A stretch of DNA of 50,429 bases from Bacillus sp. AZ43. Lineage in GTDB: Bacteria > Actinomycetota > Actinomycetes > Mycobacteriales > Geodermatophilaceae. The notes under the pieces are model-generated. The model worked only from the letters and a program-made list of their open reading frames with translations. It was not told the origin of the DNA and searched no databases. Of this stretch, positions 7,875 to 11,712 are shown one piece after another. The position numbers were made by a program, and so were the translations under genes. Position 1 is the first letter of the stretch; the number at the start of each line of letters is the position of its first letter. The stretch spans positions 1 through 50,429 of the forward strand of contig SPQJ01000033.1 of NCBI GenBank assembly GCA_004570425.1, read 5' to 3'.

Positions 7875-8750
7875 GTGTCTGCCACGATCGACGCCGTGAC
7901 CTCCGCGGCGATGCAGTCCACGTTGCCGGCGCGGGTGCACCACCTGCAGCCCGCGGCGCTCACCGCGCTCGCCGTGGCGCTGGTCGCCGGCCTCCCGGAG
8001 CTGTTCGGCGACGAGGGGCGCCTGGCCGCGGTGCTGGTGCTGCAGCTCGGGCTGGTGCTGACCTGGGTGGTCGTGACCGGCATCCAGGGGTTCGCCGGAT
8101 CGCTCGCCGTGGGAGCCGCCGCCGCGGTCGCCGCCGACCTGGTGCTGGTGCTGCCCGCCCGGCCGGAGCTGGGAGACCTGCTGGTGGTGCTGGGCGTGGG
8201 CTTCCTCGCCGCCGTCGTCCAGCAGATGTTCCGGCGCCCGCGCGAGAACCTCGTGGCCTCGCTGGCGGGTGCGGTCCTGCTGCTGGTCTCCGTCGGCGCG
8301 CTGGCGGCGCTCCTCCTGCTGGGCCGCACCCCCGAGGGGCACGGCCGCACGCTGGTCGCCCTCCTCGCGGTGGGCGTGGCGCTCGTCGTCGGGCACCTGG
8401 TCGACCTCGTGGTGCCCCGCCCCTACCTGGCCACCGGCGTCCCGCGCGGGCTGCTCGGCCTGGTCGTCGCGGTGCTCGCCGGCGCCGCGGTCGCCGTCGT
8501 CGGCCGTGACGTGGGCGGGTCGGCCGGAGCCCTCCCGGCCCTCGTCCTGGGAGCGGCCCTGGCGGGGGTCACCGCGATGGTCGCGCTCGTGGCCAGCTAC
8601 GTCGTCGTCGAGGCGACGGCGACCGGGGAGGAGAGGGCGATCCCCCGGCCGGAGCCGTCGCTCTCCCCGTGGGCGCTGTCCGTCGTCCAGGCCGTCCTGC
8701 CCCTGGCGGCCTGCGCGCCGGTGGCGCTGGCCCTGCAGTGGGTGCTCTGA
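7875..8750 (+). CDS. Multi-helix integral membrane protein, unknown function
   Basis: About 291 residues with seven or eight hydrophobic helices and short polar loops. The longest loop is near the C-terminus (EATATGEERAIPRPEPS). I recognise no catalytic motif or named family. GTG 7875 was chosen because GAGGGG lies seven bases upstream; GTG 7896 and ATG 7911 remain possible. It starts a plus-strand run with the LmeA-like gene eight bases downstream, so it may act in envelope lipid biology. That is inference from position. Confidence 0.75.
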   Translation: MSATIDAVTSAAMQSTLPARVHHLQPAALTALAVALVAGLPELFGDEGRLAAVLVLQLGLVLTWVVVTGIQGFAGSLAVGAAAAVAADLVLVLPARPELGDLLVVLGVGFLAAVVQQMFRRPRENLVASLAGAVLLLVSVGALAALLLLGRTPEGHGRTLVALLAVGVALVVGHLVDLVVPRPYLATGVPRGLLGLVVAVLAGAAVAVVGRDVGGSAGALPALVLGAALAGVTAMVALVASYVVVEATATGEERAIPRPEPSLSPWALSVVQAVLPLAACAPVALALQWVL

Positions 8751-8758
8751 GGCGGTCC

Positions 8759-9454
8759 GTGAAGGCGCTCCTCGTCGTCCTGCTCGTGGTCCTGGTGGTC
8801 GCGGTCGTCGGCGACCGGCTGCTCGAACGCTGGGCCGAGGGGTACGTCGCCGACCAGTTGGTCGAGCAGGCGGGGCTGGCCTCGGCACCGGAGGTCGACG
8901 CCCGCGGCTTCCCGTTCCTGACCCAGGCGATCGGCGGCCGGTACGACGAGGTGGACATCTCGCTCACCGCCGAGCAGCTCGGCCAGCCCGCGGGCACCCG
9001 TGCCGACGTCGTCCTGCGCGGTGTGCACGTCCCGCTGTCCCGGGTGTTCTCCGGGTCGGTGGAGGAGATCCCGGTCGAGCGGATCGACGGCACGGCGACG
9101 TTGTCCTACGACCTGCTGTCGTCCCGGCTCGGCGGCGACACCACGCTCTCCCGGGAGGGTGACGGGCTGCGCATCACCCGGACCGTCGAGCTGGCGGGCC
9201 GCAGCTTCCCGCTGACCGCCACCGGCACCGTGAGCCTCGAGGGCGGCGAGCTGGTGGTCGACGTCGCGACCGCCGCGGGCGCCGGCGTGGAGGTCCCGGG
9301 CTTCCTCGTCGGCCGCCTCGCCGACGCGCTCGACCTGCGGTACGCCGTCCCCGCGCTGCCCTTCGGGCTGCGGCTCACCGGCGTGACCCCCGCCGACGAC
9401 GGCGTGGACGTCCGGGTGGAGGCGACCGACACCGTCCTGCGCGCCGCGGAATAG
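8759..9454 (+). CDS. LmeA-like DUF2993 phospholipid-binding protein
   Basis: A 231-residue protein with an N-terminal signal or anchor helix (ALLVVLLVVLVVAVVGDRLL) followed by a beta-rich DUF2993 domain exported to the cell envelope. The family includes mycobacterial LmeA (Rv0817c), which binds phospholipid and supports lipomannan elongation. Landmarks include VDARGFPFLTQAIGGRYDEV and an LPFGLRLTGV segment near the end. GTG 8759 follows GAGGCGG and lies 8 nt from the preceding stop. Its place beside glnR and mshD matches the mycobacterial order. Confidence 0.85.
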   Translation: MKALLVVLLVVLVVAVVGDRLLERWAEGYVADQLVEQAGLASAPEVDARGFPFLTQAIGGRYDEVDISLTAEQLGQPAGTRADVVLRGVHVPLSRVFSGSVEEIPVERIDGTATLSYDLLSSRLGGDTTLSREGDGLRITRTVELAGRSFPLTATGTVSLEGGELVVDVATAAGAGVEVPGFLVGRLADALDLRYAVPALPFGLRLTGVTPADDGVDVRVEATDTVLRAAE

Positions 9455-9484
9455 CGCACCGTCCCGGTGGGGTTGGTGCACGGG

Positions 9485-9916
9485 ATGAGCGGGATGGGAG
9501 CGGCCGTGCTGGTCGCGGCGCTGGCGTTGACCGGTGCCGTGGCGTGGTGGCTGCGCGCCCGCGACGGCGCGATCCGGGAGGCGGGACAGGTGGGGCAGCC
9601 GACGGTGTTCGAGCGGCTGGGCGTCCGGCCGGCCGACGCCGACCTGACGGTCGTCCAGTTCTCGACCGCCTTCTGCGGTCCGTGCCGCGCCACGAAGGCC
9701 CGGCTGCAGCAGCTGCAGGCGACCCGTCCGGGCCTGGCGGTGGTCCAGGTCGACGCCGAGAGCCACCTCGACGAGGTGCGCGAGCTCGACGTCCGGCGCA
9801 CCCCGACGCTGTTCTTCCTCGACCGGGAGGGGCGCCTGGTCGGCCGCAGCAGCGGCGCTCCCCGGGCGGACGAGCTGACCGCACTGGTCGACGCCCGCGT
9901 GGAGGCCCGCCCGTGA
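9485..9916 (+). CDS. Membrane-anchored thioredoxin-fold protein
   Basis: About 143 residues: one N-terminal helix, then a thioredoxin fold with the redox motif FCGPCRATK and the conserved cis-Pro region RRTPTLFFL. It probably reduces disulfides at the membrane. It corresponds to ThiX (Rv0816c), which sits between lmeA and the sulfurtransferase gene in mycobacteria. ATG 9485 is the preferred start; GTG 9467 would add six residues but has no ribosome site. The next element, a cysteine-rich leader, starts 17 nt after its stop. Confidence 0.9.
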   Translation: MSGMGAAVLVAALALTGAVAWWLRARDGAIREAGQVGQPTVFERLGVRPADADLTVVQFSTAFCGPCRATKARLQQLQATRPGLAVVQVDAESHLDEVRELDVRRTPTLFFLDREGRLVGRSSGAPRADELTALVDARVEARP

Positions 9917-9921
9917 TCGGC

Positions 9922-9927
9922 TACCCT
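9922..9927 (+). promoter_or_regulatory. -10 element for a leaderless Cys-leader transcript
   Basis: TACCCT lies exactly six bases before the GTG of the leader peptide, so transcription should begin at the start codon. No convincing -35 is seen. Confidence 0.6.
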
Positions 9928-9933
9928 CGCGCC

Positions 9934-10008
9934 GTGGGCATCCTGCTGACCTCGCGCCGCACAGTCGACCTGTGCCGCGTCGGCAGCTGCCTGTGTCCGA
10001 CCTGCTGA
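9934..10008 (+). CDS. Cysteine-rich leader peptide (24 aa)
   Basis: A GTG-initiated 24-codon frame whose second half includes DLCRVGSCLCPTC; Cys occurs at positions 14, 19, 21 and 24. Related 'putative leader peptides' occur upstream of sulfur genes across actinobacteria, and cysteine-responsive uORF attenuation has been described in mycobacteria. Ribosomes short of Cys-tRNA would stall here. The last Cys codon and the stop lie inside a hairpin (9997-10014) that competes with a second one (10009-10028), as expected of an attenuator. The genes controlled would be DUF4395, the sulfurtransferase and sseC. Confidence 0.8.
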   Translation: MGILLTSRRTVDLCRVGSCLCPTC

Positions 10009-10028
10009 GGTCGGCTCCCTGACCGACC
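9997..10028 (+). promoter_or_regulatory. Mutually exclusive hairpins: candidate cysteine attenuator
   Basis: Segment A CCGACCT (9997-10003) pairs perfectly with segment B AGGTCGG (10008-10014). B can instead use GGTCGG (10009-10014) to pair with segment C CCGACC (10023-10028). A lies in the last Cys-containing codons of the leader, so ribosome position would decide which hairpin forms. Segment C is 41 nt before the DUF4395 start codon. Confidence 0.6.
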
Positions 10029-10068
10029 AGACGTGCCCCGTCCGCCGTCCGAAGGTCCTCTCGCTCCC

Positions 10069-10497
10069 ATGACTGCACCCGCGCAGATCGACGCGCGTGC
10101 CCCGCGCTTCGCCGCGGCGGTGACCTCCGTCGTGCTCGCCGTCGCGCTGCTCACCGGCAGCGGCTGGCTGGTCGCCGCACAGGCACTGGTCTTCGCCGCC
10201 GGCGCGGTCGCGGGCCTGCGGCGCTCGCCCTACGGCCTGCTCTTCCGGGTGCTCGTCGCGCCGCGGCTCGGCCCGGTCCGGGAGAGGGAGCCGGAGGCGC
10301 CGCCCCGGTTCGCGCAGGTCGTGGGGCTGCTCTTCGCCGTCGTCGGGGCCGCCGGTTACCTGCTGGGCGCACCCGTGCTCGGCGCCGTCGCCACCGGGCT
10401 CGCCCTGGTGGCGGCCCTGCTCAACGCGGCCACGGGCTTCTGCCTGGGCTGCGAGCTCTACCTGATCGCACGGCGGGCCCTGCCGGCCCGCGCCTGA
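10069..10497 (+). CDS. DUF4395 membrane protein
   Basis: 142 residues with three or four membrane helices and the family's cysteine motif near the end (GFCLGCELYLIARR). DUF4395 proteins are commonly encoded with thioredoxins, rhodanese-type sulfurtransferases and Cys leaders, so a role in sulfur transfer or transport is likely but unproven. ATG 10069 follows a weak GAAGG. It lies between the candidate attenuator and the sulfurtransferase gene. Confidence 0.85.
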   Translation: MTAPAQIDARAPRFAAAVTSVVLAVALLTGSGWLVAAQALVFAAGAVAGLRRSPYGLLFRVLVAPRLGPVREREPEAPPRFAQVVGLLFAVVGAAGYLLGAPVLGAVATGLALVAALLNAATGFCLGCELYLIARRALPARA

Positions 10498-10527
10498 CCA
10501 CCCGCACACCATCAACGGAGGAACACC

Positions 10528-11355
10528 GTGAGCCGCAACGACGTGCTCGTCACCGCCGACTGGGTCCAGGAGAACATCGGCCAGCCCGGCATCGTCCTCG
10601 TCGAGGTCGACGAGGACACCAGCGCCTACGACGGGGGCCACATCGAGGGCGCCGTCAAGCTGGACTGGAAGCAGGACCTGCAGGACCCGCTGCGCCGCGA
10701 CTACCTCGACAAGAGCTCGTTCGAGGAGCTCCTGTCGGCCAAGGGCATCGGCAACGACGACACCGTGATCCTGTACGGCGGCAACAACAACTGGTTCGCC
10801 GCCTACGCGTACTGGTACTTCAAGATCTACGGCCACCAGTCGGTGAAGCTCATGGACGGTGGCCGCAAGAAGTGGGAGCTCGACGGGCGTCCGCTGTCGA
10901 AGGACGCCGTCGAGCGGCCGGCCACCCAGTACCGGGCGCAGGACCCCGACCTGTCGATCCGCGCCTTCCGCGACGAGGTCGTGGCCTCCATCGGCTCGAA
11001 GAACCTCGTCGACGTCCGCTCGCCCGACGAGTTCTCCGGCAAGATCCTCGCTCCCGCCCACCTGCCGCAGGAGCAGTCGCAGCGGGCCGGTCACGTCCCG
11101 ACGGCGATCAACATCCCGTGGAGCAAGGCGGCCAACGAGGACGGCACCTTCAAGAGCGACGAGGAGCTGGCCAAGCTCTACGCCGAGCAGGGCTTCGACG
11201 ACAGCCGGCCGACCATCGCCTACTGCCGGATCGGCGAGCGCTCGAGCCACACCTGGTTCGTGCTGCGCGAGCTGCTCGGCAAGCAGGACGTCAAGAACTA
11301 CGACGGCAGCTGGGTCGAGTACGGCTCGCTCGTCGGCGTCCCGATCGAGAAGTGA
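10528..11355 (+). CDS. Thiosulfate sulfurtransferase (rhodanese, CysA2/SseA type)
   Basis: 275 residues with two rhodanese domains. The N-terminal domain is inactive-like; the C-terminal domain carries the catalytic loop YCRIGERSSH with its persulfide-forming Cys. It moves sulfane sulfur from thiosulfate to acceptors such as cyanide or protein thiols. Length and sequence match the mycobacterial CysA2/CysA3 proteins (about 277 residues). GTG 10528 has GGAGG seven bases upstream. It lies 30 nt after DUF4395 and 6 nt before sseC. Confidence 0.95.
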   Translation: MSRNDVLVTADWVQENIGQPGIVLVEVDEDTSAYDGGHIEGAVKLDWKQDLQDPLRRDYLDKSSFEELLSAKGIGNDDTVILYGGNNNWFAAYAYWYFKIYGHQSVKLMDGGRKKWELDGRPLSKDAVERPATQYRAQDPDLSIRAFRDEVVASIGSKNLVDVRSPDEFSGKILAPAHLPQEQSQRAGHVPTAINIPWSKAANEDGTFKSDEELAKLYAEQGFDDSRPTIAYCRIGERSSHTWFVLRELLGKQDVKNYDGSWVEYGSLVGVPIEK

Positions 11356-11361
11356 GCTGAC

Positions 11362-11655
11362 ATGTGCGGAGCCCCGAAGCAGGGCGGTGCCCTCGCCGGC
11401 ATCGACCTGACCACCCAGACGGTCATCCAGGGCCAGGTCTGGCACGACGGCGTCCCGGTGGCCGGCGCCTACGTCCGGCTGCTGGACGCCACGGACGAGT
11501 TCACCGCCGAGGTGGTGACCAGTCCCGAGGGCGAGTTCCGGTTCTTCGCCGCCCCCGGTGAGTGGAAGGTGCGCTCCCTGGCGCCGGTGGGCAAGGGCGA
11601 GCGCGTCCTGTCGGCCGAGGTCGGGCTGAACGAGACGACGATCGTCGTCGACTGA
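11362..11655 (+). CDS. SseC-type DUF1416 protein
   Basis: A 97-residue protein of the DUF1416 family. It starts MCGAPKQGG with a conserved Cys at position 2 and continues as a predicted beta sandwich (VIQGQVWHDGVPVAGAYVRL, FRFFAAPGEWKVRSLAP), resembling a carboxypeptidase-regulatory-like fold. The family is almost always encoded directly after the CysA/SseA sulfurtransferase, as here (gap 6 nt), and probably assists sulfur transfer. The mechanism is unknown to me. Confidence 0.9.
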   Translation: MCGAPKQGGALAGIDLTTQTVIQGQVWHDGVPVAGAYVRLLDATDEFTAEVVTSPEGEFRFFAAPGEWKVRSLAPVGKGERVLSAEVGLNETTIVVD

Positions 11656-11656
11656 A

Positions 11657-11712
11657 GGATCCCCTCCTCCCCACCCCTCGCAGGCTCGGGGCGGGATCCG
11701 GGAGGGGGCCGC
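11657..11712. terminator. Possible convergent terminator
   Basis: The gap between sseC and the SpoIIE gene holds complementary C-rich and G-rich tracts (CCCCTCC near its left end, GGAGGGGG near its right end, with CCCC/GGGG inside). The stem is imperfect. Confidence 0.3.

Follow-up and report, generated by a model that had tools for sequence, protein, structure and literature searches.

In the window (the whole stretch of 50,429 nucleotides that we analyzed), a short open reading frame (ORF) precedes a sulfur operon and is quite likely a cysteine-responsive translational attenuator. The leader ORF, its spacing from a promoter element, and the operon can be read from the DNA (Table 1), and two RNA pairings, B:C and A:D, covary among relatives. 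In the proposed mechanism, the mRNA would start at the GTG, and a ribosome would read the short leader. If cysteine is ample, the ribosome would read through and leave, and A would pair with D, which would close a three-helix RNA that encloses P2 (B:C) and P3; the sulfur operon would be poorly translated. If charged tRNA-Cys is scarce, the ribosome would stall with the UGU codon at 9994-9996 in its A site. Segment A lies directly downstream of this UGU and would be under the stalled ribosome, so P2 would form and D would be freed, allowing translation of the DUF4395, sulfurtransferase, and SseC genes.

Table 1. Features of the leader and of the operon that follows it (positions in the window)
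Feature	Position	Strand	Remarks
-10 element TACCCT	9922..9927	+	Read from the sequence; predicted transcription start is the GTG (leaderless mRNA)
Cysteine leader ORF, MGILLTSRRTVDLCRVGSCLCPTC	9934..10008	+	24 codons; GTG start 9934-9936, TGA stop 10006-10008
Last conserved Cys codon (TGT)	9994..9996	+	Likely sensor codon; TGT constant among relatives
Segment A, CCGACCT	9997..10003	+	GACCT at 9999-10003 could pair with D; A:D covariation
Segment B, AGGTCGG	10008..10014	+	5' arm of hairpin P2 (B:C); covariation
Segment C, CCGACC	10023..10028	+	3' arm of hairpin P2 (B:C); covariation
Hairpin P3	10030..10049	+	GACG/GC 10030-10036 with GC/CGTC 10044-10049; near-invariant in the window's family
Segment D, GAAGGTC	10051..10057	+	DUF4395's Shine-Dalgarno region, to which A (in the window, alternatively C) would bind
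DUF4395 gene (PF14340)	10069..10497	+	First gene of the operon; profile match, E = 1e-45
Double-rhodanese sulfurtransferase gene	10528..11355	+	Two rhodanese stretches by profile
DUF1416 gene	11362..11655	+	Pfam DUF1416 match, E = 7e-39

A preliminary description of this DNA reported a 24-residue ORF with four cysteines in its final 11 codons, a TACCCT six bases upstream of it, and three exactly complementary arms (A, B, and C), all of which are plain in the sequence. The spacing runs from TACCCT to the GTG at 9934, and the Cys codons are at 9973 (TGC), 9988 (TGC), 9994 (TGT), and 10003 (TGC). B is the exact reverse complement of A (7 bp), and C is that of 10009-10014 (6 bp). This arrangement of A:B and B:C was not seen in any of 3,000 dinucleotide shuffles of 9934-10068. 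Among 746 tiles of 135 nt taken from the window on both strands, 6 had it, including the element itself, and the predicted fold of 9934-10100 has no exceptional stability (z = -0.68). Thus, the geometry of A, B, and C is not decisive by itself, and conservation must decide. We found no Rfam match (E up to 1) within 9400-11700.

The leader's mRNA probably begins at the start codon, that is, it is leaderless, judging from the promoter sequences of its relatives. All 51 loci from the window's family that have a sulfurtransferase gene downstream have a TAnnnT box 6-8 nt ahead of the start codon; the rate at positions drawn at random from these loci is 0.4%, and our script preferred start codons with a TAnnnT box where several were possible. 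A box at this spacing is also present in 71 of 89 loci from the class. A consensus scan of the leader promoter did not identify a sigma-70 promoter with a -35 box. Just upstream of the leader, on the same strand, are an LmeA-like gene (8669-9454) and a thioredoxin-like gene (9467-9916), and the stop codon of the latter ends 5 bases ahead of the -10 element.

The downstream genes had been described as DUF4395, a sulfurtransferase, and SseC, which agrees with the profile matches: the sulfurtransferase has two rhodanese stretches, and "SseC" corresponds to Pfam DUF1416. We take the sulfurtransferase to be of the CysA2/SseA type, and the DUF1416 gene is presumably of the SseC type. DUF4395 had no match in 19 of the 51 family loci (such as L015, L024, L032, L047, and L048). 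Some of these retain the leader and have a short ORF in place of DUF4395; L048 has a shortened DUF4395-like frame.

We compared the leader to two NCBI models. The window's peptide scores 29.2 bits against NF042934 (cis_reg_atten), which is above the cutoff of 27, and 37.9 bits (E = 1e-9) against NF042933 (leader_Ms5788A, an equivalog), which is below the cutoff of 45. In a six-frame search, the scores were 27.2 bits for NF042934 and 31.8 bits for NF042933. By these sequence scores, the leader is a member of NF042934 and is related to Ms5788A, yet it lies outside NF042933 as NCBI delimits it. The cutoff of NF042933 was reached in none of the 57 genomes from the window's family and in 34 of 246 from the class. 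At E up to 1, NF042933 matched in all 57 family genomes and also in 7 of 14 control genomes, so leader calls in the family rest on gene context. A leader with a sulfurtransferase gene downstream was found in 51 of the 57 genomes (51 loci). As for the other six genomes, one leader (L042) is on a contig too short to include the operon; of the remaining five, three have weaker second matches and two have no convincing match. Across the class, NF042933 matched at E up to 0.001 in 169 of 246 genomes and in none of the 14 controls, and DUF4395 or the sulfurtransferase lies downstream in 89 of 90 loci, or 88 of 89 distinct loci. (L081 and L158 are the same place, which is counted once in the distinct-locus figures and twice in the 140-locus and pN/pS counts.) The profile matches and the operon context thus bear out the suggestion that this is a probable leaderless cysteine leader ahead of sulfur genes and kin to those of mycobacteria.

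The last conserved Cys codon is nearly always UGU. Across 140 loci from 25 families, it is TGT at 135 of 139 distinct loci, including 51 of 51 from the window's family and 84 of 88 distinct loci from the rest of the class. The four exceptions, all TGC, are 3 of the 17 loci in family f2 and the sole locus from f27. Elsewhere, TGC is the common codon: in the sulfurtransferase and SseC-type genes that follow the leaders, Cys is encoded by 229 TGC and 16 TGT, and in high-GC3 ORFs of the window by 154 TGC and 5 TGT, where the selection for GC3 slightly favors TGC. Within the leaders themselves, TGC encodes Cys14 at 51 of 51 family loci and 76 of 82 class loci, and Cys19 at 42 of 43 and 42 of 56, respectively. 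We also considered 26 further leaders: 15 with other downstream genes and 11 family loci (four of which are near-identical and from one genus), with L183 excluded. The Cys of the motif is TGT in 25 of these, and L064 has no Cys there; leaders of the superfamily that have a single Cys also use TGT. Pairing with D does not account for the constancy of UGU: the best A:D helix covers the third base of this codon in just 16 of 101 loci, 9 of which are in f2. Among the literature matches listed, none reports the constancy of UGU (Canestrari et al. 2020 was outside that comparison).

The front of the leader is conserved as a peptide. In the motif RRxVDLCRV, the amino acids are fixed and several synonymous codons are used. 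For the 17 codons up to the last conserved Cys, pN/pS was 0.23 in the window's family and 0.19 within other families; for the codons past it, pN/pS was 1.64 and 0.74, respectively. Thus, the front is kept as a peptide and the tail is not. This raises an explanation that is compatible with translational attenuation, in which RRxVDLCRV in the exit tunnel, together with the UGU codon, would form a cysteine-tuned arrest peptide. The low pN/pS in the motif codons, like the use of synonymous codons, agrees with such a role for the nascent chain but does not prove it, and the motif, often with a single Cys, recurs in leaders ahead of other sulfur genes. On the other hand, the loci were gathered with a profile of this same peptide, which favors conserved ones, and a conserved peptide could have another role. 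We view an arrest peptide as possible but on the doubtful side.

The evidence for attenuation comes mostly from RNA pairings among relatives. We aligned 44 sequences from the window's family, for which RNAalifold found just three pairs because some genera use shifted registers. We therefore used the 29 sequences that share one register (that is, without nine from genus g4, five from genus g12, and L039), and for these, RNAalifold found P2 and P3 but not A:D. In the 29 sequences, 94.3% of cells in B:C are paired, with 15 two-sided changes, and none of 500 shuffles was as high. The covariation of B:C was 0.270 versus 0.133; two coarser measures were not above the shuffles (62 and 159 of 500 were as high). 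In all 44 sequences, 82.5% of cells are paired, again with 15 two-sided changes and none of 500 shuffles as high. The preliminary description had proposed the B:C hairpin and a search for covariation in relatives, and this hairpin does covary. P3 is paired in 96.9% of cells across the 44 sequences, with no two-sided change.

A:D, which joins the end of the leader to the Shine-Dalgarno site, also covaries. In the 29 sequences, 77.8% of cells are paired, with 17 two-sided changes (none of 500 shuffles as high), and the covariation is 0.224 versus 0.163 (1 of 500 shuffles as high); two coarser measures were not above the shuffles (241 and 498 of 500). When A:D is slid by one column, its covariation is 0.207, which is close to that of A:D, and its pairing drops to 50.2%. 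In all 44 sequences, 75.6% of cells are paired (2 of 500 shuffles as high), with 21 two-sided changes (0 of 500), and the covariation is 0.216 versus 0.201 for the one-column slide.

To go beyond the family, we compared how well each Shine-Dalgarno site pairs with the last 15 bases of its own leader and with those of leaders from other families, using 101 loci from 19 families (41 of the 51 family loci and 60 class loci, leaving out class loci with the sulfurtransferase first and those with unclear starts). Own A:D pairing was better than cross-family pairing in 16 of the 19 families (P = 0.00026, Wilcoxon test); our choice of start codons favored Shine-Dalgarno-like sites, which affects own and cross-family comparisons alike. 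The controls gave P = 0.091 for an upstream segment of the leader and P = 0.74 for mid-intergenic DNA. Families f6, f26, and f28 were below zero, and f2 was hardly above. The best complement of the leader's end lies inside the Shine-Dalgarno window at 68% of the loci, as compared to an average of 51% with the ends of other families' leaders and 37% with shuffled ends. Examples of A:D in relatives are GACCTTC:GAAGGTC, GGCCTCC:GGAGGCC, GACTCCC:GGGAGTC, CTCTCCTGA with TCAGGAGAG (L136), and an 11-bp helix of GGCTCCTGAAC with GTTCAGGAGCC (L148). In several loci from f2, which we took to be the Mycobacteriaceae because of their poly-Cys leaders, it is the Cys codons that form base pairs next to the Shine-Dalgarno site (TGTTGCTG with CAGCAACA). 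At 73 of 101 loci, the first D-paired base is 3-13 nt past the UGU codon. Since A:D covaries within the family and across 19 families, we infer that the leader's end acts as an anti-Shine-Dalgarno sequence. When we masked A in silico at 42 loci, the predicted openness of the Shine-Dalgarno site rose by more than 0.05 in 18 and fell in 5, and the remaining loci changed little.

In the window itself, A:D is just 5 bp (GACCT at 9999-10003 with AGGTC at 10053-10057). The minimum-energy prediction is instead A:B (7 bp) with a 4-bp C:D helix (GACC:GGTC), and masking A does not open the Shine-Dalgarno site (predicted openness went from 0.56 to 0.52). Because A:D is weak in the window and its predicted fold has no switch, the mechanism is carried by the comparison to relatives and not by the window's own fold. 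A:B with C:D may be the main resting fold in the window, and if so, D would be held there too.

That fold is at the heart of another explanation, which resembles the switch that was originally proposed: A:B would alternate with B:C, and C instead of A would hold the Shine-Dalgarno site when A:B forms. A and B are exact complements, and several relatives, among them L009, L024, and L041, have predicted folds similar to the window's. We permuted genera and compared duplex energies at 44 of the 51 loci (the 7 without a recognizable D were omitted, and in six g4 loci, where the ORF has three extra codons, the B and C windows were misplaced). B:C exceeded all 5,000 permutations, with P = 0.0006 for A:D and a weak P = 0.024 for A:B; neither C:D (P = 0.14) nor B:D (P = 0.95) was above the permuted genera, and B:D pairing was rejected on this result. 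In the 29 sequences, A:B does not covary: it had 2 two-sided changes (329 of 500 shuffles as high), and 392 of 500 shuffles had as much covariation. With all 44 sequences, two measures placed A:B above most of the shuffles (15 and 11 of 500 reached its value), and A:B shifted by one column outscored A:B proper. By eye, A:B and B:C can each be traced in genus g4 too, where the letters differ considerably. A:B may, on this comparison of sequences, have a role in some lineages, including the window's. As an account of the switch, alternation of A:B and B:C seems unlikely: C:D shows no covariation across genera, whereas A:D does covary, and in the window, with A masked in silico, a second GACC of the C region stays paired with D. 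Of the original proposal, B:C stands; A:B, which was to be a conserved arm, does not covary in the 29 sequences; and the Shine-Dalgarno segment, D, was missed. Without D, a switch of three segments has no output, so a fourth segment is needed. A terminator in the 60-nt spacer, either intrinsic or Rho-dependent and governed by translation of the leader, would instead make this a case of transcription attenuation, which is very unlikely: we found no terminator-like site in the region, and termination would not need the Shine-Dalgarno pairing that covaries. Rho dependence was, however, proposed for actinobacterial cys leaders on the ground that they lack conserved terminator hairpins (PMC1262725).

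Leaders of this type, with translational attenuation as the favored explanation, may control more than one operon. The same genome contains two more candidates, both on contig C17. First, L066 (at 29479) scores 28.9 bits, over the cutoff of NF042934, and precedes a TauE/SafE-type (exporter) gene; we did not find a TAnnnT box there. At L066, CTGACTCC, from the stop codon onward, matches GGAGTCAG, which is 4 nt ahead of the next start. Second, L067 (at 174389) scores 20.3 bits, below that cutoff, and precedes a gene of the NirA/sulfite reductase type; no such pairing was found at the start codon of the next gene. In 15 other leaders from the class, the next gene, as picked by our script, is of the sulfite/nitrite reductase type (4 leaders) or encodes CysH (2), adenylylsulfate kinase, cysteine synthase, a sulfonate-binding protein, a sirohydrochlorin chelatase-like protein, or a luciferase-type monooxygenase (2), and three have no evident role in sulfur metabolism (an ABC ATPase, a ROK regulator, and a 2-oxoacid oxidoreductase). 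Ahead of sulfur genes other than this operon, A:D is clear only at L066, and the start codons at the 15 loci are uncertain. The tail of L187, a leader before a CysH gene, has a perfect 12-bp complement downstream (CGTCCCGATCGG with CCGATCGGGACG). More broadly, we tentatively suggest that actinobacterial cysteine leaders could be codon-tuned sensors assisted by the nascent chain: a single near-universal UGU, a codon that is otherwise rare in these GC-rich genomes, would set the stall together with RRxVDLxRV in the exit tunnel, the few codons that follow would be a covarying anti-Shine-Dalgarno switch, and the module would run a cysteine regulon (in this genome, two leaders that are clear and a weaker third).

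This kind of leader is already known from mycobacteria, where ribosomes that stall in a poly-Cys tract reportedly block structures that sequester the ribosome-binding site. The comparison of relatives corrects the RNA pairing and adds the unexpectedly fixed use of a rare UGU codon and the conservation of the peptide. The statement that cysteine-responsive upstream ORFs (uORFs) are known in mycobacteria is supported by three articles: Shell et al. 2015 (PMC4633059) describe a conserved, leaderless, Cys-rich uORF before cysA2, and PMC13236596 and PMC9031893 report related mycobacterial genes as translation attenuated, referring to Canestrari et al. 2020 for attenuation in M. smegmatis. Similarly, Seliverstov et al. 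2005 (PMC1262725) predict Cys leader peptides in Mycobacterium, Propionibacterium, and Bifidobacterium. Those leaders, like the window's, are short ORFs ahead of sulfur genes in which Cys codons lie close to the stop, but conserved terminator hairpins were not found for them, whereas B:C and A:D covary here.

The closest known system is Ms5788A, which is the leader before cysA2 that NF042933 describes. Both are short ORFs that end in Cys codons, with a common peptide motif and the same type of downstream operon: the window's ORF precedes sulfurtransferase and SseC-type genes, with DUF4395 first. In an Ms5788A-like leader, an mRNA structure that includes the leader's end should also mask the ribosome-binding site of the following gene, and the covariation among relatives indicates such a structure, which is weak in the window's own sequence. 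Unlike Ms5788A, which has a run of Cys codons, the window's leader has 3-4 spaced Cys, and its score falls short of the NF042933 cutoff. Its family also differs in having the three-helix RNA with P2 and P3, and in that A:D uses codons past the last conserved Cys, whereas Cys codons take part at several f2 loci. As for NF042934, it is a broad domain model whose cutoff the window's leader passes; the members that we examined precede many sulfur genes, and 15 of them have downstream genes other than those of this operon.

Overall, the cysteine-sensing leader of mycobacteria now extends to the window's family and to much of the class, and the regulatory pairing of the leader's end with the Shine-Dalgarno site has comparative support. 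Two questions follow: why is UGU used almost without exception for the sensing Cys, and why is the preceding peptide conserved? Should the peptide itself aid stalling, it would represent a common arrest peptide, one that reports the cysteine supply.
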